Shown here: positions 25,221 to 43,579 of the stretch, piece after piece | How the letters are laid out: every line of letters begins with the position of its first letter | Numbering within the stretch: the stretch's first letter is position 1 | Assembly (NCBI GenBank): GCA_949744075.1 | Contig: CATJWI010000094.1 | Span: 1 to 48,588 of the forward strand | Reading direction: 5' to 3' | Length of the DNA stretch: 48,588 nt | DNA from: an uncultured Eubacteriales bacterium | Lineage (GTDB): Bacteria > Bacillota > Clostridia > Oscillospirales > Oscillospiraceae | Position numbers and translations under genes: made by a program | The notes under the pieces: generated by a model | What the model was told of the DNA's origin: nothing | Database searches by the model: none | What the model saw: only the letters and a program-made list of their open reading frames with translations

Positions 25221-25589
25221 TTACTGGACCGCGATGGCCTCGATCTCGCAGAGGACTCCTTTGGGCAGGGCCTTGACCGCTACGCAGCTGCGGCCTGGCT
25301 TGGAGACGAAATACTTGGCGTAGACCTCGTTGAAGGCGGCAAAGTCTCCCATGTCCGCCAGGAAGCAGGTGGTCTTGATCACCTTAGTGAAGTCTGTCCC
25401 GGCGGCGGTCAGGATGGCGCCGACGTTCTGACAGCTCTGCTCGGTCTGGGCGGCGATGCCCTGGGGGACCTCGCCAGTGGCGGGGTCTACGGGGATCTGG
25501 CCCGAGGTGATGACGAAGCCGTTGGCCGCATAGCCCTGGGAGTAGGGGCCGATGGCCCCGGGGGCGTTTTTGGTGTCGATGAGCTTCAT
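25221..25589 (-). CDS. RidA family protein (reactive intermediate/imine deaminase)
   Basis: APGAIGPYSQGYAANGFVITSGQIPVDPATG...RSCVAVKALPKGVLCEIEAIAV. Confidence 0.92.
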   Translation of the reverse strand: MKLIDTKNAPGAIGPYSQGYAANGFVITSGQIPVDPATGEVPQGIAAQTEQSCQNVGAILTAAGTDFTKVIKTTCFLADMGDFAAFNEVYAKYFVSKPGRSCVAVKALPKGVLCEIEAIAVQ

Positions 25590-25619: not shown

Positions 25620-26939
25620 TTATCCAGACGAGCGGGATCGCCCCGCCCGGTTTGGACCGGTTTGCTTCTCCCTGCCCTCCTGGAGCAGGCGCTGGTGGTC
25701 TTCCAGCATGAGCTGGGCCGCGATGTCCAGGGAGTGGATGGCCTCGTACTGGTCTACCAGGTCGCTCTGGACCAGGTCGCTGTAGGTCTTCTCCCCACCG
25801 TAGGACAGCTTCAGAAAAACGGGGGTGCAGATGGCGCAGGCCATGACGCACAGGATCACCGGGCCGGTGAGGGCCTCCTGCATCAGGCCCAGGGCCAGGC
25901 CCTTGGTGGCCACGATCAGGGCCACCTCCCCCCGGCAGACCATGCCCACCCCTACCTGGAGGCTCTCCCTACCACTGTAGCCGCACAGGCGGGCCCCCAA
26001 GCCGCAGCCCAGGAGCTTGGTGGACATGGCCACCAGGGTGAGGACCAGGGCAAAGAGCAAAAGGGCCCCGCTCATCTCCGGCAACACCAGCTTCACCCCA
26101 ATGCCCGCGAAAAAGACGGGGGAGAAGAAGAGGAACGACAGGGTTTCGCACCGGGAGGCGATGTGAGCGGCCTGGCTGGTGTTGGCGATGATGACCCCCG
26201 CCAGATAGGCCCCCGTGATATCGGCCACGCCGAAGAAGGTCTCCGCCCCATAGGCGAAGAGGAAGCAAAGCCCAAAGGAAAATACGGCGTACCGCCGCCG
26301 GCCCCGGTCCTCGGCCTGGGTCAGCCATTTGACGCCCTTGTGCAGGAGCACCCCAAGGACGAGGGCGGCGGCGAAAAACCCGCCGATGCGCAGCAGCACC
26401 AGGGACAGCCGCACCGTGGGGTCCGCCATGCTGGTGACCAGAGTGAGGGCCACGATGCCCAGAATGTCGTCAATGAGGGCGGCGCTGAGCACCGCGCTGC
26501 CCGAGCGGGTGGACAGCTTGCCCATTTCCCGCAGGGTCTCCACTGTAATGCTCACCGAGGTGGCGGTGAGGATCACGCCCAGGAAGGCGCTCTCCAAGGG
26601 GCTGCCCACGCCAAAGGCTGTCCCCAGCAGGAAGCCTCCTGCCAGAGGGACCGCCACCCCGCACAGGGCGATGATCAGGGCGGAGCGCCCTGACTTCCGC
26701 AGCTCCTGCACGTCTGTCTCCAGACCGGCGGTGAACATGAGGACGATGACTCCGATCTCGGAGACCTGATCCATAAAATCCGTCTCCACCAGCACTCCCA
26801 GGCAGGCGGGGCCCAGCAGCAGCCCCGCCAGAAGCGCCCCCACCACCTGGGGCAGGGCGAAGCGTTTTGTCACGATACCAAACAACTTGGTGCTGAACAG
26901 GATCAGCGCCATATCTAACAAAAAATGATAAGAACCCAT
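25620..26939 (-). CDS. Cation:proton antiporter (CPA2 family)
   Basis: Polytopic; LPQVVGALLAGLLLGPACLG, ALIDDILGIVAL. Confidence 0.87.
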   Translation of the reverse strand: MGSYHFLLDMALILFSTKLFGIVTKRFALPQVVGALLAGLLLGPACLGVLVETDFMDQVSEIGVIVLMFTAGLETDVQELRKSGRSALIIALCGVAVPLAGGFLLGTAFGVGSPLESAFLGVILTATSVSITVETLREMGKLSTRSGSAVLSAALIDDILGIVALTLVTSMADPTVRLSLVLLRIGGFFAAALVLGVLLHKGVKWLTQAEDRGRRRYAVFSFGLCFLFAYGAETFFGVADITGAYLAGVIIANTSQAAHIASRCETLSFLFFSPVFFAGIGVKLVLPEMSGALLLFALVLTLVAMSTKLLGCGLGARLCGYSGRESLQVGVGMVCRGEVALIVATKGLALGLMQEALTGPVILCVMACAICTPVFLKLSYGGEKTYSDLVQSDLVDQYEAIHSLDIAAQLMLEDHQRLLQEGREKQTGPNRAGRSRSSG

Positions 26940-26984: not shown

Positions 26985-28214
26985 TTAAAACATCAAGGGA
27001 TGCGCCCCGTCGTAGACTACGTGGCGGTAGCCCTGCGGGTCGGTGTCCCCCTCGGTGTTGAACAGCAGGACCACCGAATTTTCGTCCAGGCCCAGCTTGT
27101 CCCGGAAGGGGCGCAGCTCCTCCCGCTCCAGCAGAAGGGAGAGAAGGCCCGCGGTGACGGCCCCGGACTCTCCGGAGACCACCGGCCGGTCTCCGCCCGC
27201 CGGGGCGGCCAGCACCCGCATCCCCCGGGCGGAGACCGCGTCGGGGCAGGCAAAGGCAAAGTCGGTGTTGTCCCGCAGGATAGGCCAGGTGAGCTGGCAG
27301 GGCTCGGCACAGTTGAGTCCTGCCATGATGGTGATCTCCGAGCCGATGGCCTTATGCTCTTTTCCGTCGTCCTGGCGGAGGGACTCGAAGATGCAGGCCA
27401 CCTCCTCCGGCTCCACCACGGCGATTTTGGGCCGGTCCTTCCCATAGGTACAGCAGAGGGCGCCGGTGACGCCGCCGGCCATGGCCCCCACGCCCGCCTG
27501 GAGGAACACATGGGTGGGGCGGCGGTAGCCCAGCAGCTCCAGCTGGTCCATGGCCTCATAGACCATGGTGGTGTAGCCTTGGATGATCCAGCGGGGGGCG
27601 GTCTCATACCCGGGCCAGGAGGTGTCCTGGATCAGGGTCCAGCCCTTCTCCTCCGCCATCTTGGCGGCGTAGCGCACCGCGTCGTCATAGCTCAGGTCGG
27701 TGATGGTGACTTCCGCGCTCCCCGCGTCCCGGATGGCCTGGGCCCGGGCCTCCACTGAGCCCCGGGGCATGTAGACGTAGGACTTGGCTCCCAGAAGCCC
27801 CGCCGCCCAAGAGATTCCCTTGCCGTGGTTGCCGTCGGTGGTGGTGACAAAGGTCATTTTACTGATCTTCTCACGGTTTTCCGGGCGCTGGAGCTGCTCC
27901 ATGGTGACGGTGTGGTGGTCCAGGCCCAGACTCTCGCATACCGACCGGCACAGGGCATACACCCCGCCCAGGCCCTTAAAGGCGTTAAGGCCGAAACGCT
28001 TGGACTCATCCTTGACGCAGATAGCCGCTACCCCAAGGCGCTTGGCCAGGCCGTTGAGTTCCACCAGGGGGGTGGGGGCATACTGCTTCAGGGACTCGTG
28101 GAGATGGCGCACCGGCCCGGTGGCCTCCCGGGAGAGAAAGTCGGGGGCTGGGCTGGGGGTGCGGTGGGGATTGAGCTCCATTTGGATGTTTGCAATGGTT
28201 TCTACCTGTAACAT
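26985..28214 (-). CDS. dpaL: Diaminopropionate ammonia-lyase
   Basis: PLP fold with SKRFGLNAFKGLGGVYAL, TDGNHGKGISWAA, QAGVGAMAGGV. Confidence 0.88.
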   Translation of the reverse strand: MLQVETIANIQMELNPHRTPSPAPDFLSREATGPVRHLHESLKQYAPTPLVELNGLAKRLGVAAICVKDESKRFGLNAFKGLGGVYALCRSVCESLGLDHHTVTMEQLQRPENREKISKMTFVTTTDGNHGKGISWAAGLLGAKSYVYMPRGSVEARAQAIRDAGSAEVTITDLSYDDAVRYAAKMAEEKGWTLIQDTSWPGYETAPRWIIQGYTTMVYEAMDQLELLGYRRPTHVFLQAGVGAMAGGVTGALCCTYGKDRPKIAVVEPEEVACIFESLRQDDGKEHKAIGSEITIMAGLNCAEPCQLTWPILRDNTDFAFACPDAVSARGMRVLAAPAGGDRPVVSGESGAVTAGLLSLLLEREELRPFRDKLGLDENSVVLLFNTEGDTDPQGYRHVVYDGAHPLMF

Positions 28215-28254
28215 AAAAATACCTCCTTTGGATGGTTTGTTGTCTCTATGTTAT

Positions 28255-28271
28255 AGCAAGCGCCGTGCCAA
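28255..28271 (-). promoter_or_regulatory. Sigma54 (-24/-12) promoter of dpaL
   Basis: Minus strand TTGGCACGGCGCTTGCT; full match to YTGGCACGrNNNTTGCW. Confidence 0.85.
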
Positions 28272-28384
28272 AATGCCCCATAGACCAGAAAACCATTGGG
28301 AGACAGGCACTTTTTATTTTTGAACGAGGTGTTTTTCCCGGGAGACCGCTCCGCCGTTCTCAATTTGAAACAGAAAAAAGAAAT

Positions 28385-28424
28385 GGGTCTATCAAAATGA
28401 GAAAATCTCCATTTTGATAGACCC
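28385..28424. promoter_or_regulatory. 14-bp-arm palindrome; candidate activator site and/or terminator of the sigma54 regulator
   Basis: gggtctatcaaaat-N12-attttgatagaccc; T-rich stretch follows on the minus strand. Confidence 0.6.
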
Positions 28425-28429
28425 GCTTT

Positions 28430-30166
<1,737 letters not shown>

Positions 30167-30250
30167 GTCCGTTCACCTCTCCTTTGCCTTTTCTCCATTA
30201 TCGCATGTCCTGTCCCATTTTTCCAGAGGAAAATTCAGATTCCTGCGGGA

Positions 30251-30287
30251 AAAGGGCGGACGGCACGAATGGGTACCGTCCGCCCTC
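30251..30287 (-). terminator. Intrinsic terminator downstream of pepD
   Basis: gggcggacgg...ccgtccgccc hairpin followed by tttt on the minus strand. Confidence 0.7.
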
Positions 30288-30302: not shown

Positions 30303-31760
30303 TCAGTAGTCTTTCATGGCCGCCAGCACCTTCAGGAACCGGGCGTAATCGTCGGCCATGACCTTCACGGAGAAGTGTTCCCGGGGAGAGTGGGGGCTTT
30401 CCACCACCGGGCCCACCCCGGCGGCCTCCGCCCCGGGCATATGCATGAGGAAGATGCCCTGCTCGCAGGTGCCTTGGGCCACATTGGGCTCCATGTCGGC
30501 GTAGATGGGCCCCACCACCTGGGCCACCCGGCCGTTGCCGCAATATTCCCACTGGGGCAGGTCGTGGAGGATGTTGAGGCGCACACCCATCAGTTCACAA
30601 ATGCGCTGGATCTTGTCGAACTGGAAATACTTCTTGGCCGCTAGGGCGGAGCGGATGCATACCACCACCCGGAAGGCCCCTTGGGCCATCTCCACCACGC
30701 CCACATTGACGCAGGACTCATACTTGTGCTCGAAATACTTGTGGAGGGAGCACAGCCCGTCGGGGAGGATGGTCATGAGGGTCAAAAATTTCTCCGTGGT
30801 CCCGTCGTCGCAGGTCTCAGCCGCCGGGGCGTCCCACAGGGTTACCGACAGTTTTACATCGGGATCGGGCACCGCCAGCTCAGAGGAGTAGACCCCCTGC
30901 CACTCCTGTACTGCATTTACTACTGTCTCGGCCCACTCCGCCGGGAAGCTCAGCACACACTGGGCGTCCCGGGCGTAGGCGCAGGCGGTCTCCGCCCCGC
31001 CCACGAAGGAGGCGATGCGGAAGGGAACCTTCTTCTTTTTTTGCAGGTCGGAGAGCACCCGCACCAGCAGAGTGTTGGCGTTGCCCCGCTCGGCAAAGGC
31101 GTTCTTGCCGCTGTGGCCCCCCATAAGCCCGCCGATGGAGAGGGCGGCGGTCACGTCTCCCGGCCGGGCGGGGGTCATGTTCCGGTCCTGGAGCAGTTCC
31201 ATCTCCAGCTCCCCCGCGCCCCCCAGGGACAGGCGGGTGGCGTCGGTGCTGAGGATGATCTTGCTCTTGAGTTTGTCGTAGTGGAGCTTCCAAGCCCCCT
31301 TCATATCGGTCTCCTCATTGGTGGTGAACACCGCCTCCAGGGCCGGGTGGGGAATGTCTTTGGATTCCAGCACCGCCAGGATAAAGGCCATACCCAGGCC
31401 GCAGTCGGCCCCCAGGGTGGTGCCGTTGGCGTGGATGATGTCCCGGTCGGCGTCCAGCATCAGCTCCAGAGGTTCCTTTTCGAAGTCGTGCTCCACCCCG
31501 GGGTCGGTGGCGCAGATCATATCCATGTGGGCGGCCACCATCACCGAGGGGGCCTTCTCGTAGCCCGGGGTGGCGGGCTTGTAGATGATAACGTTGGTGG
31601 TCTCGTCCTGAAAGACCTCCAGCCCCAGGTCCCGGCCAAACTTCACCAGGTAGTCGCTAATGCCCTGGGTGTTGTCCGCCCGACGGCAGGTCACTTGGGA
31701 CAGGTCATAGAAGCACCGCAGCACGCTTTGAGGCTCCAGACCGTTAAATATATAGTCCAT
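30303..31760 (-). CDS. pepD: Aminoacyl-histidine dipeptidase (M20C, PepD-like)
   Basis: VMVAAHMDMICA, GTTLGADCGLGMAFILAVLE, EAVFTTNEETDMKGA, GGLMGGHSGKNAFAERGNA. Confidence 0.88.
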   Translation of the reverse strand: MDYIFNGLEPQSVLRCFYDLSQVTCRRADNTQGISDYLVKFGRDLGLEVFQDETTNVIIYKPATPGYEKAPSVMVAAHMDMICATDPGVEHDFEKEPLELMLDADRDIIHANGTTLGADCGLGMAFILAVLESKDIPHPALEAVFTTNEETDMKGAWKLHYDKLKSKIILSTDATRLSLGGAGELEMELLQDRNMTPARPGDVTAALSIGGLMGGHSGKNAFAERGNANTLLVRVLSDLQKKKKVPFRIASFVGGAETACAYARDAQCVLSFPAEWAETVVNAVQEWQGVYSSELAVPDPDVKLSVTLWDAPAAETCDDGTTEKFLTLMTILPDGLCSLHKYFEHKYESCVNVGVVEMAQGAFRVVVCIRSALAAKKYFQFDKIQRICELMGVRLNILHDLPQWEYCGNGRVAQVVGPIYADMEPNVAQGTCEQGIFLMHMPGAEAAGVGPVVESPHSPREHFSVKVMADDYARFLKVLAAMKDY

Positions 31761-31790: not shown

Positions 31791-32209
31791 TTACAGCTTG
31801 CTCTCCAGCAGGGCATAGAAGGAACAGGCGGTGAGGATCTGGTCCACCGGGCAGGTCTCGTCTACGATGTGGCAGCCCGCCTCATCCCCTGCGCCGAAGA
31901 TGATGGTGGGGACCCCCAACTTCCCGGCGGTGACATAGCCGTTGGTAAAGCCGTTGCGGCGGTAGACGATGGGCTCCAACTCCAGCTCCGATACCGCTTT
32001 CCGGGCCGCCTCGATGCGGGGGTGGTCCTCCTCCAGACGCCAGGCCGGCAGCAGGTTTGCAGCACGGCCCCCCGCCCAGTCCAGGTGATGCCGCAAGTGT
32101 CCACGATTTTCCAGGAGACCCCGGGGAACCCTTCGCACAGCCCGTCCAGCTCCCTGAGCTCATGGGCTACTGCCAGGCCCGCCATCAGGGCTTGATGCTC
32201 TTTGTTCAT
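31791..32209 (-). pseudogene. Truncated and frameshifted remnant of a YgeY-like M20 peptidase
   Basis: Frame A ...VDTCGITWTGRGA then frame B ANLLPAWRLEEDHPRIEAARKAV...NGFTNGYVTAGKLGVPTIIFGAGDEAGCHIVDETCPVDQ; frame change near the C-run 32068-32073; only the C-terminal part of an M20 enzyme. Confidence 0.72.
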
Positions 32210-32240: not shown

Positions 32241-33650
32241 TTACTGCTCTGCGGCGGCGGACTCCTTGACGTACTTGGTGTCGAAGCCCATCAGGGTCAC
32301 CACCAAGAGCACAACGGGGGTCACATAGGCGAAGAAGCTGTAGGGGATGAGCTGGGCGGGGCTGACGCCGATATGGCCGGCGGCCACCACCGAATTCATG
32401 TTCCAGGGCAGCAGGGTGCACATGGCGGTGCAGCCCACCGCCAGAGCCCGGGTCAGGTTCACCTTGTCCAGCCTGGTCCGGTCATAGACAGGGGCCATGA
32501 TGTTGCCGGCGAAGACATAGGCAAAGTTGGAGGAGGCGCCGATGGCGTTGCCCAGCACGGACATGAACACCGTGGCCAGGATGACGCTGAGCTTGGAATG
32601 AAGCCGCTGGGTCAGGGGCTCCACCAGGGCGTCGATGATGCCGGCGGCGTTGAGGATGCCGAACAGGCCGAAGGCGAAGAGGAACAGGATGCCCGTGCTG
32701 GCCATGCTGGTGATGCCGCCCCGGTTGAGCAGGGTGTCCACCATATCCATGCCGGAGTCAATGGAGTAGCCACCCCAGAAGTAGGAGATCACGTCGGGGA
32801 TGCTCTTGCCCTCCGCCAGGCAGGCGATGACGCCGCCGGCGAAGGCGCCGGTGAGCAGGGAGGGGATGGAGGCCTTCTTCATGGCCAGCATGCCGAAGAC
32901 GATGACCATGGGCAGCACCGCCACGACGCCCATATGGAAGTTGCTCTCCAGAGTCTGGCTGATGCCGTTGACCACGGTGTAGTCTACCGTTCCGTTGCTG
33001 TTGAGCATCAGGCCCATAATAAGGTAGAGCACGGCGCAGATGATGCCCGAGGGGACGGTGACCTTGGCCTGGTGCTTGATGCCCACGAACAGGTCCACCC
33101 CGGTGACGCCGGAGCAGAGGTTGGGGCCGTCGGACAGGGGGGAGATGGTGTCCCCGAAGAAGGCGCCGGAGCAAATGGCACCGGCGGTGATGAGGGGGTC
33201 AATGCCCATACCCATCCCGATGCCCGCCAGGGCAAGGCCCGCGGTGCCGCAGGTGCCCCAGGAGGTGCCGGTGACCATGGAGCACATGACGCACAGCAGG
33301 AAGGCGGCCACCAGGAAGAAGGAGGGGGAAATGAACTTGATGCCCAGATTAATAATGAGGGGCACGGTGCCGGCGGCGTTCCAGGTGCCCACCAGGCCGC
33401 CGTTGATCAGCAGGATCAGAATGGGGACAATGGCCCGGGTGCAGGACTGGACCACGCCGTTTTGAAGGTCCTTGTAGGACACACCCAGCCGCAGGCACAG
33501 GGGCAGGGCCACCAGCCAGCTCAGCAGGAAAAGGGGGTGGATCTTGGACCCCCAGGCCAGGGCGGGTACCATGATAACACTGAATACAGCGATCACAGTG
33601 AACAGGGCATACCCAAAGGAAGGCTTTTTTGCAATTTTTTGCTCATTCAT
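32241..33650 (-). CDS. NhaC family Na+/H+ antiporter (or related exchanger)
   Basis: Polytopic; TGTSWGTCGTAG, GDTISPLSD; start MNEQKIAKKPSF with RBS aggag rather than the track start at 33854. Confidence 0.85.
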   Translation of the reverse strand: MNEQKIAKKPSFGYALFTVIAVFSVIMVPALAWGSKIHPLFLLSWLVALPLCLRLGVSYKDLQNGVVQSCTRAIVPILILLINGGLVGTWNAAGTVPLIINLGIKFISPSFFLVAAFLLCVMCSMVTGTSWGTCGTAGLALAGIGMGMGIDPLITAGAICSGAFFGDTISPLSDGPNLCSGVTGVDLFVGIKHQAKVTVPSGIICAVLYLIMGLMLNSNGTVDYTVVNGISQTLESNFHMGVVAVLPMVIVFGMLAMKKASIPSLLTGAFAGGVIACLAEGKSIPDVISYFWGGYSIDSGMDMVDTLLNRGGITSMASTGILFLFAFGLFGILNAAGIIDALVEPLTQRLHSKLSVILATVFMSVLGNAIGASSNFAYVFAGNIMAPVYDRTRLDKVNLTRALAVGCTAMCTLLPWNMNSVVAAGHIGVSPAQLIPYSFFAYVTPVVLLVVTLMGFDTKYVKESAAAEQ

Positions 33651-33730
33651 CGTCATTTTCTCCTCTATTCTCAAATTTTTGGCGGGTGGTGTAAGAAAAA
33701 ATTGCGGTATCCGCCACTGCCTATCAATAG

Positions 33731-33747
33731 AGCAATGGGGATGCCAA
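33731..33747 (-). promoter_or_regulatory. Sigma54 promoter of the nhaC operon
   Basis: Minus strand TTGGCATCCCCATTGCT (TGGCAT-N5-TTGCT). Confidence 0.75.
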
Positions 33748-33847: not shown

Positions 33848-33879
33848 ATCTCAAAATAATAAAATTCTCATTTTGAGAT
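33848..33879. promoter_or_regulatory. Palindrome, candidate sigma54 activator site
   Basis: atctcaaaat-N12-attttgagat. Confidence 0.65.
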
Positions 33880-33934
33880 CACAGGTGTTTATTTTGATAT
33901 CCGGTCAAGGGAGGATTGAGGGAGGAAACATGAC

Positions 33935-34067: not shown

Positions 34068-34084
34068 TTGGCACAGGGTATGCG
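34068..34084 (+). promoter_or_regulatory. Sigma54 promoter of the gntP/maoC/caiB-like/acd operon
   Basis: TTGGCACAGGGTATGCG (GG and GC at correct spacing). Confidence 0.72.
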
Positions 34085-34191
34085 TATAGTCTAAAGCAGG
34101 AATCAAAGACAGCTGTCAAAAAAGGAGCGGAGAGGGAAAGTGAGATTCCGGGCAGAGACAACCTGTTGGAAAGAAAAAGGAGGTTTATAAC

Positions 34192-35502
34192 ATGTACGAT
34201 ATTCTGGTTCTGATCATCGCGCTGGTCCTGTTTACCGTTCTGGCCTTCCTGCGGGTGGGCGCCATGCCCCTGGCCGCAACGGTGGCCCTCATTACCTGCA
34301 TCCTGGCCCGGCTGCCCATTCTGGAGACCATTCTGGGCCCCTTCATGGCCTCGGCGGCCAACTATGTGCAGAACTACTGCTTTGTGTTCTTCCTGGGGGC
34401 AGTGTTCTCCGCCCTCTATGAGCGATCCAAGGGCGCCAAGTCCATCGCCCTGTTTTTGAGCAAGGTCACCCACGGCAAGCACGTGGCCGCCCTTATCTTT
34501 ACTGTCACCGCCATTCTGACCTACGGCGGTATCAGCGGCTTCGTCATCTACTTCGTCATGTACCCCATCTGCCTGCAGATGTTCCAAAAGAACAACCTCT
34601 CCCGCATCCTCATCCCCGGCGCCATCACCGCCGGGTGCTGGACGGTGTCCATGGTGGCTCCCGGCTCCCCCTCGGTGCAGAACGTGGTGGCCATGAACAA
34701 CCTAGGCACTCCTTCTACCGCCGCCCTGGTCCCCGGCGTCATCACCATCGTGGTGGAGTACATCCTCATCGTGGCCTGGTTCGAGTACCGGACCAAGAAG
34801 CTCCAGAAGATGGGCAAGGGCTTCGACGACCCCACACTGCCTCCTCTGCCCGAGTCGGAGAAGGACTTCTCCGAGGACCCCGACGAGGTCCGGCCCAGCG
34901 CCATTATCTCCTTTATCCCCATTGCGGTCATCCTTATTCTTTTCAACGGCTTCCATCTGAAGGTAGAGGCCGCCGTCTTCTTCGGCATCCTCACCGCCTG
35001 CGTTCTCTTTAAGCCTTTCCTGCCTACTTACCGGGATTACATCGACCTGTTCAACCAGGGCGGCACTAACGCCATCAACGCCCTGCTGAACACCGCCATC
35101 GTGGTGGGCTTCGGCGGCGTGGCCCAGCAGACCATCGGTTTCCAGAAGATCGTAGACGGGGTGTTGCAGATGAACATCTCCCCCCTGGTCTTTGTGGCCA
35201 TCGCCGTTGCCGTGTGCGCCGGCATGTGCGGCTCCGCTTCCGGCGGCATGGGCATCGCCTTCAACGCTCTGAAGGACACCTTTGTGGCCCTGGGAGTCAA
35301 CCTGGAATATGTCCACCGGATCTCCGCCATCGCCGCCGGTACCCTGGACACCCTGCCCCACCAGGGCGGCCAGATCACCATTTTCGCCATCACCCATATG
35401 AACCACAAGACGGCCTACTGGGATATCTGCGTCACCCAGCTCATCATTCCCCTCATTACCGTCTTTGCCGTCACCATCCCCCTGTGCTCTCTGGGGCTGT
35501 AA
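34192..35502 (+). CDS. GntP family permease (carboxylate/hydroxy acid transporter)
   Basis: Polytopic 436 aa; LTYGGISGFVIYFVMYPI, GSASGGMGIAFNALKD, DTLPHQGG. Confidence 0.8.
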   Translation: MYDILVLIIALVLFTVLAFLRVGAMPLAATVALITCILARLPILETILGPFMASAANYVQNYCFVFFLGAVFSALYERSKGAKSIALFLSKVTHGKHVAALIFTVTAILTYGGISGFVIYFVMYPICLQMFQKNNLSRILIPGAITAGCWTVSMVAPGSPSVQNVVAMNNLGTPSTAALVPGVITIVVEYILIVAWFEYRTKKLQKMGKGFDDPTLPPLPESEKDFSEDPDEVRPSAIISFIPIAVILILFNGFHLKVEAAVFFGILTACVLFKPFLPTYRDYIDLFNQGGTNAINALLNTAIVVGFGGVAQQTIGFQKIVDGVLQMNISPLVFVAIAVAVCAGMCGSASGGMGIAFNALKDTFVALGVNLEYVHRISAIAAGTLDTLPHQGGQITIFAITHMNHKTAYWDICVTQLIIPLITVFAVTIPLCSLGL

Positions 35503-35532
35503 AACCGTTTTTCAAAGAAAGGATGAAATGAT

Positions 35533-36417
35533 ATGGAGAAGTTGAATTTGACCGAACTCCTGGTGGGCCAAAAGATGGAGCCCCGCTACATGGAGTACAA
35601 CTGGCGGGACATCGCCCTCTACGCCCTGGCGGTGGGCGCCAAGCGGGAGGACCTGGACTACGTCTACGAGAAGGGCCTGAAGGCCATCCCCACCTACGCC
35701 ACCATCCCCTACTGGGGCACGGTGAACGTCCGGCCCTACCAGTGGATGCCCCTGCCCGCCTCCATGCTGGCCAACGACATCATCAAGCCAACCATCTCCT
35801 ATCTGAACATGGACCACGAGGTCATCATTCACCGGCCCATCGATCCCATCAAGGGCACCTTCCAGTGGCAGGACGAGATCACCGACGTCTACGACCGGGG
35901 CGAGGGCAAGGGCGCCGTGGTCAAGAGCAAGGTACTGGTCCGGGACGAGGCGGGCAATGCCGTGGCCACCAACTACTCCACCACCTTCTTCCACGAGGCC
36001 GGCGGCTTCGGTGGTCCTCCCATGCCCAAGAGCGACGTGGTCATCCCCGACCGGGAGCCCGACTTTGAGGTGGACGACTACATCAGCCCCATCCAGAACC
36101 TGCTCTACCGCCTCACCGGCGACACCAACCTGGTCCATGTGGACCCGGCCTATGCCCAGAAGATGGGTTTTGAGACCTCCTTCATGCAGGGGCTGTGCTC
36201 CTTTGGTTTCTCCTGCCGCATGGCCATCGGAGCCCTGATTCCCGGCCAGCCCGAGCGGATGACACGGATGGCTGCCCAGATGAGCTCAGTGCTCTTCCCC
36301 GACACCCCGGTGCGGCTGCGCCTGTGGAAGCTGGAGGAGGGGAAGGCCCTGTTCCAGTTCGTGAACCTTACCACCGGGAAGCCCGTCCTCAACCGGGGCG
36401 TCTTTGAGTGGAAGTAA
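35533..36417 (+). CDS. MaoC family (hotdog) dehydratase/enoyl-CoA hydratase 2-like
   Basis: Double hotdog architecture; DTNLVHVDPAYAQKMGFETSFMQGLCSFG. Confidence 0.85.
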   Translation: MEKLNLTELLVGQKMEPRYMEYNWRDIALYALAVGAKREDLDYVYEKGLKAIPTYATIPYWGTVNVRPYQWMPLPASMLANDIIKPTISYLNMDHEVIIHRPIDPIKGTFQWQDEITDVYDRGEGKGAVVKSKVLVRDEAGNAVATNYSTTFFHEAGGFGGPPMPKSDVVIPDREPDFEVDDYISPIQNLLYRLTGDTNLVHVDPAYAQKMGFETSFMQGLCSFGFSCRMAIGALIPGQPERMTRMAAQMSSVLFPDTPVRLRLWKLEEGKALFQFVNLTTGKPVLNRGVFEWK

Positions 36418-36460
36418 GAGCGTTCTATTTTTGATACTACCCCATCTCCCAATAGAGCTG

Positions 36461-36494
36461 TTTTCAGGCGGCGGGGAGACCCGCCGCCTGAAAA
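36461..36494. other. Intercistronic perfect hairpin without T-tract
   Basis: ttttcaggcggcggg-gaga-cccgccgcctgaaaa, 15-bp perfect arms. Confidence 0.75.
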
Positions 36495-36530
36495 CCGGCC
36501 ACCTCACATGAAGAAAGGAGCTATCCCATT

Positions 36531-37769
36531 ATGTTCAAACCCCTGGAAGGCGTGAAGGTCGTAGACCTGACCTATTTCGTAGCCGGACCCGGCACCGCCA
36601 AGATCCTGGCGGACTGGGGCGCTGACGTCATCAAGGTGGAGCCCTCCTTCGGCGACCCCGCCCGGAGCACCGGCGCCACTATGTCCTGCCCCATCCAGAA
36701 GGACTGCAATCCCTTCTACACCGCTTACAACGCCAACAAGCGGGGCATTTCCCTGAACCTGAAGACCGAGGAGGGCAAGGCGGTGCTGGATAAAATTTTG
36801 GAGGGGGCCGACGTGTTTCTCTCCAGCTACCGCACCGGAGCCTTGAAGCGGCTGGGGTTGGACTACGCCTCGGTCCACGCCAAGCACCCCCACATTATCT
36901 GGGCTCAGATCAACGGCTTCGGCGATTTCGGCCCCGCCAAGGACAATGCCGGCTTTGATACCGTGGCCTTCTGGGCCCGGTCCGGGGCCATGATCGACAT
37001 CACCGAGAAGAACACCAGCCCGGTGAATCCCCTCATTGCCTTTGGTGACGCCACCACCTCCTGTTCCCTGGCCGGGGGCATCTCCGCCGCCCTCTACCAG
37101 AAGTCCAAGACCGGCCGGGGCTGCAAGGTCATGGTCTCCCTCTTCGCCCAGGCCATCTGGACCGAGAGCGCCGGCATGGTATCCACCCAGTACGGCGACG
37201 AGTACCCCAAGTCCCGGCTGAATCCCGGCTCCCCCGTGATGGATACCTTCCAGAGCTCCGACGGTATCTGGTTCTATATGAGTATCCTGGAGCCTGACCG
37301 GTATAACTCCGCCCTTCTCAAGGAGCTGGGCCGGGAGGACCTGCTGGGCGATGAGCGGTACTGCACCGCCGTTGGCTCCAAGGCCAACAGCGCCATGGTG
37401 GTGGAGACTCTCAGCAAGGAGTTTGCCAAGCACACCATGGTGGAGATCGAGGGCATGTTTGCCCGGGCGGACATCGCCTACGACCGGGTCCAGCATATCA
37501 AGGAGGTGTTGGACGATCCCCAGGCGTTGGAGAACATGTACATCGTCCCTGTGAAGAACACCGACGGCTCGGTGACCAAGCAGCCTATGACCCCCATCCG
37601 CTTCTGCCTGGAGGAGCCCAAGACCGTGAAGGACATCGCCCCCACCGTGGACCGGCAGGCTCCCCTGGTGGGCGAGCACTCGGTGGAGATCCTGAAAGAG
37701 GTGGGCTACTCCCAGGCCGAGATCGACAAGCTGCTGGCCGACAAGGTGGTCACTGTGGACAGCCTGTGA
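36531..37769 (+). CDS. Family III CoA-transferase (CaiB/BaiF)
   Basis: PLEGVKVVDLTYFVAGPGTAKILADWGADVIKVE. Confidence 0.9.
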   Translation: MFKPLEGVKVVDLTYFVAGPGTAKILADWGADVIKVEPSFGDPARSTGATMSCPIQKDCNPFYTAYNANKRGISLNLKTEEGKAVLDKILEGADVFLSSYRTGALKRLGLDYASVHAKHPHIIWAQINGFGDFGPAKDNAGFDTVAFWARSGAMIDITEKNTSPVNPLIAFGDATTSCSLAGGISAALYQKSKTGRGCKVMVSLFAQAIWTESAGMVSTQYGDEYPKSRLNPGSPVMDTFQSSDGIWFYMSILEPDRYNSALLKELGREDLLGDERYCTAVGSKANSAMVVETLSKEFAKHTMVEIEGMFARADIAYDRVQHIKEVLDDPQALENMYIVPVKNTDGSVTKQPMTPIRFCLEEPKTVKDIAPTVDRQAPLVGEHSVEILKEVGYSQAEIDKLLADKVVTVDSL

Positions 37770-37800
37770 TATTATTTTAATGAAAAAGGAGATAGGACCC

Positions 37801-38949
37801 ATGGATTTCAAGTTTACCGAGGACCAACTGTCCCTCCAGGAGATGGCCCGGGAGTTTGCTGAGAAGGAGATCGCCCCTAAGGCGGCGGAGCTGGACGAGG
37901 TCAGCAAGCACCCGGCGGACCTCTTCGCCAAGATGGCCGAGCTGGGCTTCACCGGCCTGTGCACCCCCGAGGAGTATGGCGGCGCCGGCGGCGGGGACAT
38001 TGAGAAGGCCATCGTCATTGAGGAATTCGCCCGGAAGGATCCGGCGGTGGCCGGAGTTTACGCCATCCACTTCGGCACCGCCGCCTTCCTCAACAACTGG
38101 GGCAGCGAGGAGCTGAAGAGGGAGTACCTGCCCAAGCTGGCCAACGGGGCCCTGGGGGCCTTCGCCATGACCGAGCCCGGGGCGGGCTCCGACGCCAGCG
38201 CCATGCGCACCACCGCCATTTTGGATGAGACCGCCGGGGAATACGTTATCAACGGCTCCAAGTGCTTCATCACCGGTGGCAGCCAGGCCGACTACATCGC
38301 CCTTATCGCCCTGACCCAGCCCGAGCTGGGGGTGAAGGGAATGTCCGCCATCCTCATCGACACCGCCAAGGTGAAGGGCAAGGGCTTCACCATCGGCAAG
38401 ATCGAGCACAAGATGGGCCTCCACGCCTCGGAGACCGCCGAGCTCATCTTTGAGGACTGCCGGGTGCCCAAGGAGAATCTCATTGGCGTGGAGGGTAAGG
38501 GCTTCAACTACGCCATGACCATCCTGGACGGCTCCCGCATCGCTTGCGGCGCCCAGTGCGTGGGCCTGGCCGAGGGGGCCATCGAGCTGGCGGTGAAGTA
38601 TTCCAAGGAGCGGGTGCAGTTTGGCAAGCCCATCTCTGCCAACCAGGGCATCCAGTGGTACCTGGCTGATATGGCTACCCGCACCGAGGCGGCCAAGTGG
38701 ATGACCTACCACGCCGCCTACCTGAAGGCCAGCGGCCAGAAGCACTCCAAGGAGGCGGCCATGGCCAAACTCTTCGGCTCGGAGACCGCCCGGTTCGTGG
38801 CCAACCTGGCCATGCAGATCCACGGCGGCTACGGCTACATGGAGGAGTACCCCATGGCCAAGCTCTACCGGGACGCCAAGATCCTGGAGATCTGGATCGG
38901 CACCTCTGAGGTCCAGAAGATGGTGATCTCCCGGGCCGTTATGGGATAA
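37801..38949 (+). CDS. Acyl-CoA dehydrogenase
   Basis: FAMTEPGAGSDAS, MQIHGGYGYMEEYPMAKLYRDAKI; RBS aaaaggag upstream of ATG 37801. Confidence 0.93.
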   Translation: MDFKFTEDQLSLQEMAREFAEKEIAPKAAELDEVSKHPADLFAKMAELGFTGLCTPEEYGGAGGGDIEKAIVIEEFARKDPAVAGVYAIHFGTAAFLNNWGSEELKREYLPKLANGALGAFAMTEPGAGSDASAMRTTAILDETAGEYVINGSKCFITGGSQADYIALIALTQPELGVKGMSAILIDTAKVKGKGFTIGKIEHKMGLHASETAELIFEDCRVPKENLIGVEGKGFNYAMTILDGSRIACGAQCVGLAEGAIELAVKYSKERVQFGKPISANQGIQWYLADMATRTEAAKWMTYHAAYLKASGQKHSKEAAMAKLFGSETARFVANLAMQIHGGYGYMEEYPMAKLYRDAKILEIWIGTSEVQKMVISRAVMG

Positions 38950-38956
38950 AAAAAGA

Positions 38957-39003
38957 AAAAACAGGAGGGAGACGTCCTTGGACGTCTCCCTCCTGTTTTT
39001 TTG
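38957..39003. terminator. Bidirectional terminator
   Basis: aaaaacaggagggagacgtccttggacgtctccctcctgttttttt. Confidence 0.88.
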
Positions 39004-39004
39004 C

Positions 39005-40402
39005 TCAGGAAAGCACCTTTTTCACCGTGATCCCCGCCTTTTTCATCTTCCGGTAGAGAAGACTGCGGTCGATGCCCAGAGCGGCCGCGGCGGCGGTGCA
39101 GCTCTGGCCATACTGGCGCAGGGTGTCCCGGATGATGGCGGCCTCGTAGTCGGCCATCAGGCTGGCCAGGCGCTTGTTTGGGTCGGCCGCCCGGGACAGC
39201 AACCGGGCGGGTAGGTCCACCTCGTCGATCATCAGCATGTCGCAGGAGGTATAGGCGCTGGCGATCACGTTGGTCAGCTCCCGCACGTTGCCGGGCCAGG
39301 TGTAGCCCATGAGCCGCCCCTTGGCCGCGTCGGAGAGCATGATGCTGGTCTTGTATTCTTGGTTCAGCTTGTCCAGGGTGTGGTTAGCGTGCAGGAGGAT
39401 GTCCCCCGGCCGGTCCCGGAGGGGGATGGTCTCCAGGTTGATCACGTTCAGGCGGTAATAGAGGTCCTCCCGGAAGGCGCCCTCCCGGATCATTTTGGGC
39501 AGGTCCTGCCGGGTGGCGGCCACGATGCGCACGTTGATGGGGATGGGCCCCTCGCCTCCCACCGGCTCCACCTCCTGTTCCTGGAGGACCCGGAGCAGCT
39601 TGACCTGAAGGGGAAGGCTCATGTCCCCGATCTCGTCCAGAAACAGGGTGCCCTGGTCCGCCAGCTGGAATTTTCCCACCTTGCCACCCCGTTTGGCTCC
39701 GGTGAAGGCCCCCTCGGCGTAGCCGAAGAGCTCGCTTTCCAGCAGCTCTGCGGGGATGGCGGCGCAGTTGATGCTCACTATGGGCTTGTCCCGGCGGGGG
39801 CTCTCCATGTGGAGGGCCTTGGCAAAGAGCTCCTTGCCTGTGCCCGTCTCCCCGGTGATGAGGACGGGGAAGTCCAGGCCGGCCACCTTGGCGGCCCGCT
39901 TTTTCAGTTGGACCAATTTGGGGTCGTTGCCCAGAATGCGGTCAAAACTGCCCTGGGAACCACTCCGGTTCAGGTATTCGTCCTTATAGTAGCGCAGCTC
40001 CTCCTCGGCCAGGCTGGTGGCCATGGCGGCGGTATTTTCCTTGAAGGTGACCTGAGCGGCGGCCCCTAAAAGGGCGCCATCCGCGTCAAAGAAGCAAAAG
40101 CGGTTGCCCACCCCGTAGGTGTCCACCCGCTTCTGGGTGTCGGTGTGGGAGTAGGGGTGGATATAGACTCCGTCGTGCCCGTCCCCCCGGAGGCGGCGCT
40201 TGAGCACGTCGTACATGGAGGTGGTGGAAATGGTCTTCTCAATGGGGAAGCCCACGATCTCCTCCCGGGGCTTGCCGAAGAAATCGCAGTATTGCTGGTT
40301 GATCTCAATGACAATGCCCTGGGGGTCCACCACGATAAAGCCGTCATTGGTGATGCGGAGAAATTCCTCAAATAGCAGACGGTACATCCGGTCCTGTTCC
40401 AT
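39005..40402 (-). CDS. PAS domain-containing sigma54-dependent activator
   Basis: PAS-like N-terminus; GETGTGKELFAKALH; YAEGAFTGA; Fis-type HTH C-terminus. Confidence 0.92.
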   Translation of the reverse strand: MEQDRMYRLLFEEFLRITNDGFIVVDPQGIVIEINQQYCDFFGKPREEIVGFPIEKTISTTSMYDVLKRRLRGDGHDGVYIHPYSHTDTQKRVDTYGVGNRFCFFDADGALLGAAAQVTFKENTAAMATSLAEEELRYYKDEYLNRSGSQGSFDRILGNDPKLVQLKKRAAKVAGLDFPVLITGETGTGKELFAKALHMESPRRDKPIVSINCAAIPAELLESELFGYAEGAFTGAKRGGKVGKFQLADQGTLFLDEIGDMSLPLQVKLLRVLQEQEVEPVGGEGPIPINVRIVAATRQDLPKMIREGAFREDLYYRLNVINLETIPLRDRPGDILLHANHTLDKLNQEYKTSIMLSDAAKGRLMGYTWPGNVRELTNVIASAYTSCDMLMIDEVDLPARLLSRAADPNKRLASLMADYEAAIIRDTLRQYGQSCTAAAAALGIDRSLLYRKMKKAGITVKKVLS

Positions 40403-40599: not shown

Positions 40600-40660
40600 A
40601 AAAGCAGGATAGGAGAGGGTGCACCCTCTCATGACCCAGAAAAAAGGAGCGGGTGAAGGG

Positions 40661-43579
40661 ATGAAAAACACCAAACGACTCGTTACGCTGCTGCTAGCCG
40701 CCGCTATGGTGCTGTCCATAATGACGGTGGGCTGCGCTACGGAGAGCCAACCGAAGTTTGAGGATGTGCCTGCCGGGACCTGGTATACGGAAGCGGTGGA
40801 GTACTGCCGGGAAAAGGGGCTGATGAGCGGCACTTCCGGGGGCCGGTTTGAGCCCGGCAGCACCATGACCCGGGCCATGCTGGTCACGGCTCTTTACCGG
40901 CAGGCCGGGGAGCCCGCCGTTACGGGGACCGACGGCTTCAGCGACACGGAGGAGGATACGTGGTATTCTAAGGCCGTCCTTTGGGCCAGTCAGGAAGGGC
41001 TGGTCAGCGGGTACGGAAACGGGCTCTTTGGGACCGGCGATCCGGTGGCCCGGGAGCAGATCGTCACCATTCTCTGGCGGATGGCGGGAAGCCCCGGGGC
41101 GGAAGAAGGCGGGGCCTTTACCGACCAGGACCGCATCTCTCCCTATGCCGTTGCCGCCGTGGCCTGGGCCAGGGAAAAGGGGATCGTCAGCGGCCGGGAC
41201 GGGGACCGCTTTGATCCCCAGGGGGAGGCCACCCGGGCGGAGGTCGCCGTTATTTTGAGCAATCAGGCCAAACAGGGCGAGACCGTCCCGGAGCCCATGC
41301 CCTCGCTCAGCACGTCCCCTTCCGGCGCAGGCGGTTCCGGCGGCGGCTCCGGGCCTGCGCCCGTACAGGATGATCTTGTGCTGATCCAGGGGGGTACCTT
41401 CCAGATGGGCAGTCCGGCAGACGAGCCGGAGCGCAGTTCCGATGAGGTCCAGCACAGGGTGAGCGTGGGTAGCTTCTACATGGCAAAGACTGAGGTATCC
41501 CAAAAAGAGTACCAGAACATGATGGGGTCCAACCCCAGCGAGACCAGGGGCGACGACCTGCCCGTGACGAATCTCACCTGGTACGACGCCATCCGGTATT
41601 GCAATAAGCGCAGTGAGGCCGAGGGTCTGACGCCCTGCTATACCATCGAGGGCGCCACTGTGACCTGGAACAGGGCAGCCAACGGGTACCGCCTGCCCAC
41701 GGAGGCGGAGTGGGAGTATGCCGCCCGGGCCAATACCGCCACCCCCTTCAGCTTCGGGGACGATGTCCACAACAGCGACGCCAACTGCTACAATGCCTAC
41801 GGCTACAACAACGACGCCAGCGGCAGCTGGGTCAACGGCTCTGGCACCTACCTGAGAAGGACCGTGGCGGTGGATGCCTACGCCGCCAATCCCTATGGCC
41901 TCTATAATATGCACGGCAACGCAGCCGAGTGGGTGTGGGATTGGTATGGTGTGTACGGCTCTGGCACAGCGTCCGACCCAACCGGGCCGGAGGGCGGAAA
42001 TGCCAAGGTCGTCCGGGGCGGCGGCTGGAACGACCATCCCAAGCATATCCGCTCTGCCTACCGGGGGGCGCAGCCTGCCGACGTGGGCCTTTACAGCATC
42101 GGCGTGCGCCCGGTGCGAAATGCGGAAGCCGGCTCCGGTCGGGTGAGAAGCGAATATACCGCCGTTGCCGGGACGGAAACCGGCAAAACGCTCATCGTCT
42201 ACTTTTCCCAGACCGGAAACACCGAGGGCCTGGCTAAGTTGATCCAGGAGATGAGCGGGGCGGACATCTTCCGGTTGGAGCGGGCGACTCCCTATTCCTC
42301 CAGCAGCAACGGGCCCGTACTCTACGGGGAGGCGCTGGATGAGCTGCGCTCCGAGGCCCTTCCGGAGCTGAAGGCCTGTCCCGATATTGACCGGTATGAC
42401 ACCATCCTTCTGGGATACTGTAATTGGTGGTCCTCCGTCCCTGCGGCGGTCCGGACCCTGCTGACTAGGGCCGACTTCAGCGGGAAGACCATCGTCCCCT
42501 TCTGCTCCATGGGGGGCGGACGGTTTGGACAGACCATCAGCGCCATCGCCAAGCTGGCCCCCAACAGCGTGATCAGGGAGGGGCTGGAGGTCACCTATTC
42601 CTTCTACGACAGGGAAGAGATCGCCGCCTGGCTGGAGCGCTCCCTTCCCGCCGCACCCGGCCCCGACCCTGATCCGGACCCGGAGCCGGCGGGAGCCCAT
42701 GTGTTGGTGGCCTATTTCTCCGCCACCAATAACACGGAGAACATCGCGAACCACATCAAGGCCGCCTTTGGGGAGGAGGCCGACCTCTACGAGATCGTCC
42801 CCGAAACGCCCTACAGCTCCGCTGACTTGAACTACAATAACGATTCCAGCCGGGCCAACCGGGAGCAGAGCGATGCCAGCGCCCGCCCCGCCATCACCGG
42901 AATGGTGGCCAACATGGGGCAATATGACGTGGTCTTTTTGGGCTATCCCATCTGGCATGGACAGGCGCCTAAGATCCTGTACACCTTTGCCGAGTCCTAT
43001 GACTTGGCTGGGAAGACTGTCGTTCCTTTCTGTACCTCGGGCAGCAGTCCCGTGGGCTCCAGCGCGACGAATCTGGCGGCGGTGACCGACGGGGCCTCCT
43101 GGCTCTCCGGCAGGCGCTTTTCCGGCAGCGCGGACCAGGCCGCTGTGGAGAGTTGGATAGACAGCCTGGAGCTGCCCGAAGCAGCGCAGGGACAGACCGA
43201 GACCGCTCGGCTGTATCTTCAGGTCTCCGGCGGGAAGGAGGCCCTGTGGACGGCTACGCTGGCGGAGAACTCCTCGGCGGAGGCCTTAAAGGAGCTGCTG
43301 AAAGGCGGCCCCCTGACCATTGAAATGAGCGATTACGGCAGCATGGAGAAGGTGGGGCCCATTGGCCGGAGCCTGCCCACCAATAATCAGCAGATCACCA
43401 CAAACGCCGGCGACATTATCCTCTATCAGGGAGACCGCTTGGTGATCTACTATGACCGCAATTCCTGGAATTTCACCCGCCTGGGCAAGGTGGATGAAGT
43501 GACCCAGGCGGAGATGAAGGAGGTCCTTGGGACCGGCGGCGTGACAGTGACCCTCTCCTTGACGGCCCCCGGTGCCTGA
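40661..43579 (+). CDS. Surface lipoprotein: SLH x3, FGE-sulfatase-like, flavodoxin x2, cyclophilin-like
   Basis: Lipobox TVGC; SLH repeats; LIQGGTFQMGSP...YRLPTEAEWEYAARA...GNAAEWVWDW; flavodoxin starts TLIVYFSQTGNTE and VLVAYFSATNNTE; C-terminal cyclophilin-like MEKVGPIGRSLPTNNQQITTNAGDIILYQGDRLVIYY. Confidence 0.87.
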   Translation: MKNTKRLVTLLLAAAMVLSIMTVGCATESQPKFEDVPAGTWYTEAVEYCREKGLMSGTSGGRFEPGSTMTRAMLVTALYRQAGEPAVTGTDGFSDTEEDTWYSKAVLWASQEGLVSGYGNGLFGTGDPVAREQIVTILWRMAGSPGAEEGGAFTDQDRISPYAVAAVAWAREKGIVSGRDGDRFDPQGEATRAEVAVILSNQAKQGETVPEPMPSLSTSPSGAGGSGGGSGPAPVQDDLVLIQGGTFQMGSPADEPERSSDEVQHRVSVGSFYMAKTEVSQKEYQNMMGSNPSETRGDDLPVTNLTWYDAIRYCNKRSEAEGLTPCYTIEGATVTWNRAANGYRLPTEAEWEYAARANTATPFSFGDDVHNSDANCYNAYGYNNDASGSWVNGSGTYLRRTVAVDAYAANPYGLYNMHGNAAEWVWDWYGVYGSGTASDPTGPEGGNAKVVRGGGWNDHPKHIRSAYRGAQPADVGLYSIGVRPVRNAEAGSGRVRSEYTAVAGTETGKTLIVYFSQTGNTEGLAKLIQEMSGADIFRLERATPYSSSSNGPVLYGEALDELRSEALPELKACPDIDRYDTILLGYCNWWSSVPAAVRTLLTRADFSGKTIVPFCSMGGGRFGQTISAIAKLAPNSVIREGLEVTYSFYDREEIAAWLERSLPAAPGPDPDPDPEPAGAHVLVAYFSATNNTENIANHIKAAFGEEADLYEIVPETPYSSADLNYNNDSSRANREQSDASARPAITGMVANMGQYDVVFLGYPIWHGQAPKILYTFAESYDLAGKTVVPFCTSGSSPVGSSATNLAAVTDGASWLSGRRFSGSADQAAVESWIDSLELPEAAQGQTETARLYLQVSGGKEALWTATLAENSSAEALKELLKGGPLTIEMSDYGSMEKVGPIGRSLPTNNQQITTNAGDIILYQGDRLVIYYDRNSWNFTRLGKVDEVTQAEMKEVLGTGGVTVTLSLTAPGA

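Follow-up and report, generated by a model that had tools for sequence, protein, structure and literature searches.

The element TTGGCACGGCGCTTGCT, read on the minus strand from position 28271 to 28255 of the window (the whole stretch of 48,588 nucleotides analysed here, contig CATJWI010000094.1 of an uncultured Eubacteriales bacterium), is very probably a real sigma54 promoter, from which a DioR/YgeV-type activator (EBP) would switch on dpaL-kef-ridA, together with a second operon, nhaC-(dead ygeY)-pepD, for diaminopropionate-type breakdown. The promoter elements, the palindromic sites (UAS) common to the two promoters and their spacing, the family of the EBP, and rpoN can all be read directly from the DNA, and as a promoter the element belongs to a well-known type. 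The features discussed below are collected in Table 1.

Table 1. Predicted genes, promoters, palindromic sites and hairpins of the dpaL region (window positions)
Feature	Position	Strand	Sequence or supporting detail
RidA-family imine/enamine deaminase (ridA)	25221..25589	-	TIGR00004 above cut-off
CPA2-type cation:proton antiporter (Kef-like)	25620..26939	-	PF00999 8.7e-62
dpaL, diaminopropionate ammonia-lyase	26985..28214	-	PLP enzyme
Putative sigma54 promoter of dpaL-kef-ridA	28255..28271	-	TTGGCACGGCGCTTGCT
Possible third UAS near dpaL	28358..28370	-	TTTCAAATTGAGA, 2 mismatches
Hairpin containing A1/A2, predicted EBP-gene terminator	28375..28424	-	GC clamp, T-rich tail
Candidate UAS A2	28390..28402	+	TATCAAAATGAGA; centre 127 bp from first G of -24 GG
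Candidate UAS A1, left arm of palindromic pair	28407..28419	-	TATCAAAATGGAG
Sigma54 activator (EBP), DioR/YgeV clade	28430..30166	-	GAF-like sensor with CX2CX5C, AAA+ with GAFTGA, Fis-type HTH
Weak sigma70-type promoter candidate of EBP gene	30197..30225	-	TGGAAA-17-GATAAT, TG before
Terminator-like hairpin between pepD and EBP gene	30250..30285	-	GGGCGGACGG-N12-CCGTCCGCCC-TTTT, read from sequence
pepD-type aminoacyl-histidine dipeptidase (M20)	30303..31760	-	TIGR01893 346 bits, above cut-off 343.75
ygeY-like M20 hydrolase remnant	31791..32209	-	C-terminal part only, over two frames
nhaC-family antiporter/transporter	32241..33656	-	TIGR00931 354 bits vs cut-off 370; PF03553 on shorter frame
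Putative second sigma54 promoter, before nhaC	33731..33747	-	TTGGCATCCCCATTGCT
Candidate UAS B3, pairs with B2	33849..33861	+	TCTCAAAATAATA
Candidate UAS B2	33866..33878	-	TCTCAAAATGAGA; centre 127 bp from first G of -24 GG
Possible UAS B1	33887..33899	-	TATCAAAATAAAC, 3 mismatches; one 21-bp step upstream of B2

The probable dpaL promoter and its neighbouring activator

An earlier, sequence-only reading of this DNA had placed a full -24/-12 element here, about 40 nucleotides upstream of the dpaL start, with a sigma54 activator gene directly upstream, and each of these points is borne out. The sequence and coordinates of the element are correct, with the GG of -24 at 28269/28268 and the GC of -12 at 28257/28256, and it has the form TGGCAC/T...TTGC with the GG and GC at the fixed spacing. 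Exactly 40 nucleotides separate it from the dpaL ATG at 28214, which is preceded by AAAGGAGG, and the stop codon of the EBP gene lies 159 nucleotides upstream of the element. From the position of the GC, the +1 is predicted to fall near 28244. On the window's minus strand this is the sole match of consensus strength (at most one mismatch to YTGGCACGRNNNTTGCW). The genome is a draft, 78% complete, and it carries the rpoN gene that the sequence-only reading had suggested looking for: an intact-looking copy on contig C134 (E 1e-52), with a 463-aa frame that includes region I and the RpoN box SRRTVAKYRE. The contig was also checked for misbinning, which was rejected: over its last kilobases it shares 75-91% identity with other genomes of the genus.

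The EBP product (578 aa) has a GAF-like region at its N-terminus, followed by a sigma54 AAA+ domain (PF00158, 4.5e-70) with the GAFTGA motif and by a C-terminal HTH (HTH_8). It is 37% identical to E. coli YgeV over the full length, and its N-terminal domain alone matches YgeV (E 6e-22); of the genome's other complete EBPs, those compared show no match to this domain. A tree built from 26 EBPs places the window EBP with 100/100 support among EBPs adjoining dpaL, ygeY/ygeW, ssnA or xdh, and those adjoining cdsB-like genes form a separate set outside this clade. The cdsB-like neighbours are presumed to be such from their sequence alone, an NCBIfam search at 1e-40 having returned no match for them. 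The pairing of the window EBP with YgeV within the clade is unsure because both are long branches. Sequence comparison thus assigns the EBP to the DioR/YgeV (purine/dpaL) clade, DioR being likened to it by way of its published description rather than by protein sequence or UAS logo.

A C-X2-C-X5-C motif is kept in all 22 of the aligned sensor domains, including those of EBPs next to cdsB-like genes, and corresponds to C78, C81 and C87 of the window EBP; its conservation hints at metal binding or at thiols that respond to redox state. A search of 400 genomes of the bacterium's family and nearly 400 of its order returned only a 26% match to the EBP, and there is therefore no close orthologous footprint. 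The closest layout found, at locus L126, consists of an EBP, three UAS, a sigma54 site, dpaL and ygeY. At 29 other DpaL loci of the same family that were checked, a consensus sigma54 site stands beside none, which indicates that sigma54 control tracks the EBP and not dpaL in general.

Other sigma54-related features were observed in the genome. Strong sigma54 sites on contigs C130 (L075:2248 and 6263) and C191 (L048:2245) follow closely on EBP genes and precede CoA-transferase-like genes, and apparently belong to a set of sigma54-controlled acyl-CoA operons. In the window, within 34068-40402, a second EBP gene (39005-40402, minus strand; PAS, AAA+ and HTH) stands at the end of a plus-strand operon that includes a transporter-like gene at 34192 and genes for a MaoC hydratase, a CoA-transferase III and an acyl-CoA dehydrogenase, preceded by a weaker sigma54-like site, TTGGCACAGGGTATGCG, at 34068. 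The DioR-type UAS at 33849-33899 are also within reach. Elsewhere in the window, a plus-strand gene at 40619-43579 encodes a 986-aa protein of unusual architecture, with S-layer homology, FGE-sulfatase, flavodoxin and cyclophilin-like domains. The segment 21000-24000 has a GC content of 0.46, against about 0.62 around it, and is possibly acquired DNA; by inspection, we take its genes to be a MerR-type regulator and an ABC transporter pair.

A probable second promoter and the palindromic sites shared with dpaL

The claim of sigma54-inducible regulation is strengthened by the clade of the EBP and by features that go beyond the earlier reading, namely a second sigma54 promoter, a palindrome found at the same spacing from both promoters, and the recurrence of that motif at homologous EBPs. 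The second promoter lies about 75 nucleotides before the likelier nhaC start, an ATG at 33656 (the listed ORF starts at 33854), and is an exact match to the clostridial consensus TTGGCATN5TTGCT of Nie et al. (PMC6615313). The 13-bp palindrome TMTCAAAATGAGA is common to the two promoters, and in both cases (A2 and B2) its centre lies upstream of the -24 GG by exactly 127 bp, a distance within the range of about 100-250 bp over which UAS are placed. The EBP would bind the paired sites A1/A2 and B2/B3, and the regulon would probably include the nhaC-(ygeY remnant)-pepD operon.

In the paired form, TMTCAAAAT-N12-ATTTTGAKA, the palindromes occupy 28390-28419 and 33849-33878. These are the only two perfect copies in the 2.0 Mb genome, and the reversed control of the pattern has no genome match even at three mismatches. 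The paired pattern was derived from the two window copies themselves, and for this reason its recurrence out of sample is the stronger evidence. For that comparison, 388 Clostridia-type genomes of the same class were searched for EBPs with the same sensor domain, and 20 regions of 350 bp each downstream of such EBPs were scanned, with the 13-bp unit fixed before the scan and TMTCAAAATGAKA generalised from it afterwards. The fixed unit gave three exact sites and, at up to one mismatch, 17 sites in 10 of the 20 loci. The generalised form gave 14 exact sites, where shuffled sequence would give 0.01, and 32 sites when one mismatch was allowed, where it would give 0.20; it recurs at 13 of the 20 loci. 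Of the same regions, 17 have a strong sigma54 site, where 0.12 would be expected. Within the window's own genome the 13-bp unit has 13 matches, none of them at the other EBP genes; the third exact match, on C124, overlaps a start codon, has no sigma54 site nearby, and was set aside as chance. The result is a concrete 13-bp candidate activator site, found repeatedly at loci whose EBPs share this sensor family, making the question of what the CX2CX5C GAF-like domain senses directly testable.

Hairpins around the EBP gene and other readings of the promoter region

The hairpin formed by A1 and A2 folds at -25.7 kcal/mol (z -6.3), so that the enhancer pair looks like it doubles as the terminator of the EBP gene, a small design feature. 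At loci L122, L133 and L138, UAS pairs likewise overlap hairpins with T-rich tails directly after the EBP gene. The coincidence of enhancer and terminator may hold at these loci as well, and the hairpins could also be a by-product of palindromes in AT-rich genomes. At the other end of the gene, the hairpin at 30285-30250 and a sigma70-like candidate of its own imply that the EBP gene is probably transcribed separately, which is the more likely arrangement relative to nhaC-pepD; the scan for sigma70-type promoters found three, where 2.0 are expected by chance. Autoregulation of the EBP by way of an nhaC-pepD-EBP transcript was considered, and is made unlikely by the same hairpin.

That the palindromes act solely in termination, with no part in activation, would fit the GC clamp, the T-rich tail and the folding energy of the A1/A2 hairpin. 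The same repeat, however, is also found ahead of nhaC, equally far from the promoter there but without a clamp or a long T tail, the 13-bp unit recurs at most of the homologous EBP loci, and the copies in L126 and L125 form no clear terminator, making a termination-only role very improbable. The -24/-12 element could likewise be a coincidence, with dpaL driven by a housekeeping sigma70-type promoter. An extended -10 motif, TGC-TATAAC at 28258-28250, overlaps the -12 element, and TGCTATAAC is present and would give a transcription start at almost the same position. Against this, the scan found no sigma70-type pair here, TTGGCA is just 10 nucleotides upstream, homologous loci feature the -24/-12 element and UAS rather than TATAAC, and the second sigma54 site has its UAS in common with the dpaL promoter; a sigma70 promoter is accordingly regarded as very improbable.

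In favour of a chance match without promoter function, the degenerate pattern TGGCACGN4TTGCW, at up to one mismatch, is no commoner in the genome than its reversed control (14 matches versus 10, no enrichment). Perfect matches to this pattern, on the other hand, number three in the genome, and all three (in the window, on C130 and on C191) lie about 160-190 nucleotides downstream of an EBP stop codon. By inspection, we take the genes that follow the other two to resemble CoA-transferases. With a perfect site beside an EBP gene, at the right spacing to the RBS and start codon, and with matched UAS and a second promoter, a chance match is scarcely credible, and a sigma54 promoter served by the neighbouring EBP is the preferred reading.

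The predicted pathway and its relation to known systems

The dpaL product far exceeds the cut-off of NF006058/PRK08206 (511 bits versus 276) and is narrowly below that of TIGR03528 (517.7 versus 532.25). Its best solved relatives are 5ygr and 4d9g, it is 46% identical to E. coli YgeX, and it keeps the FGLNAFK, TTTDGNHG and QDT.W.GY motifs of characterised DpaL. The three genes of its operon are separated by gaps of 45 and 30 nucleotides. A second DpaL (about 51%) is encoded on contig C113 (6504-7628, minus strand; L046), beside a ygeY-like gene and without an adjacent consensus sigma54 site. YgeX acts on 2,3-diaminopropionate to yield pyruvate and ammonia (PMC12507026), and RidA removes the reactive 2-aminoacrylate made by PLP-dependent enzymes, making it a sensible partner for DpaL.

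In the proposed mechanism, RNA polymerase-sigma54 would be held as a closed complex at the dpaL promoter. The EBP of the upstream gene would bind the paired palindromes, both between its own gene and dpaL and upstream of nhaC, and, when its N-terminal domain senses the inducer, would loop to the polymerase and open the promoter, turning on the two operons. Diaminopropionate, or an amino acid related to it, is the most likely inducer. Substrate would then be imported, and 2,3-diaminopropionate or a similar beta-substituted alanine released by the peptidase; DpaL would cleave it to pyruvate and ammonia, and RidA would clear the aminoacrylate/imine intermediate. The flow of substrate and the roles of the antiporters are predicted from gene content. 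No SsnA, the marker of uric acid breakdown, was found above cut-off in the 78% complete genome, and this, with the broken ygeY, makes uric acid an improbable source of the diaminopropionate. The presence of nhaC and pepD suggests uptake and peptide cleavage as the source instead. The locus may represent, as a tentative proposal, a stand-alone and non-uricolytic regulon for diaminopropionate (or a beta-substituted alanine), fed by transport and dipeptide cleavage and governed by a DioR/YgeV-type CX2CX5C activator through two promoters and shared enhancers, one pair of which would also be the activator's terminator.

The sequence-only reading had predicted inducible catabolism of 2,3-diaminopropionate or serine-like amino acids. 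The regulatory part of this prediction is supported and has a precedent in the dpaL2 gene of C. difficile, whereas the inducer and the true substrate are ones that we infer. It is possible, if rather unlikely, that the switch is real but that DpaL acts mainly on another beta-substituted alanine, such as D-serine or a carbamoylated compound, sensed by the EBP. The divergence of DpaL from YgeX and its score below the TIGR03528 equivalog cut-off are in keeping with this, as are the second DpaL next to a ygeY-like gene and the sensor motif shared with cdsB-linked EBPs, given that CdsR responds to cysteine (PMC5767170). The retained DpaL motifs, the wide margin over the PRK08206 cut-off, and the repeated pairing of EBPs of this clade with dpaL speak for diaminopropionate itself.

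Among known systems, tdcF, a RidA-family gene, and dpaL2 connect the window with the DioR/DioR2 regulon of C. difficile and other Clostridiales, where the EBP is likewise beside its targets and sigma54 sites are found at both genes. The site of dpaL2, TTGGCACGGTAATTGCTTT, is assigned to DioR2, and dpaL2 expression was 0.3-fold in a sigL::erm mutant by qRT-PCR (Soutourina et al., PMC7438776); the predicted site of tdcF, TTGGCACGTTAATTGCTT, is also assigned to DioR2, and tdcF is called a regulatory endoribonuclease in the published work on DioR/DioR2 (PMC6615313, PMC7438776). Nie et al. place dpaL, tdcF, ygeW-ygfK-ssnA-ygeY and others under DioR, with the function given as 'unknown' (PMC6615313). 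Unlike those in the window, the targets of DioR also include purine and selenium genes (yqeB, pbuX, ygeW-ygfK-ssnA-ygeY; PMC6615313, PMC7438776). The window instead has nhaC, pepD and a Kef-like antiporter as partners, its ridA is inside the dpaL operon, and the host is without SsnA above cut-off.

In the case of E. coli, YgeV is a full-length homologue of the window EBP, its gene adjoins ygeX (dpaL), the YgeV iModulon contains ygeX and uric acid genes, and between ygeV and ygeW lie a sigma54-like site and a UAS copy, TATCAATATGAGA, at one mismatch. The arrangement differs from that of the window in that ygeV is divergent from ygeW, lies within a full uricolytic cluster, and has only this one UAS copy. 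A further parallel is CdsR/cdsB of C. difficile, where the sigma54 promoter has been mapped, cysteine induction has been shown by reporters, and expression of cdsB needs a region containing a pair of inverted repeats spaced about 21 bp apart, also by reporters (PMC5767170). Here too the EBP gene is directly upstream of its target, and the inducer of CdsR is the substrate amino acid, a beta-substituted alanine; the target, however, is a cysteine desulfidase, and cdsB-linked EBPs fall outside the clade of the window EBP. The reductive uric acid clusters (PMC12507026) resemble the window in having dpaL (ygeX) and a ygeY-like gene; the window differs from them in its broken ygeY, in having no SsnA above cut-off, and in lacking an adjacent ygfK, hyuA or ygeW. 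The locus extends DioR/YgeV-type control to a GC-rich bacterium in which no SsnA was seen, and whose family is otherwise without the activator in the genomes searched. Sigma54 control of dpaL is thus already known, and the window locus represents a further, apparently non-uricolytic case of it, with a different gene set and a different host.
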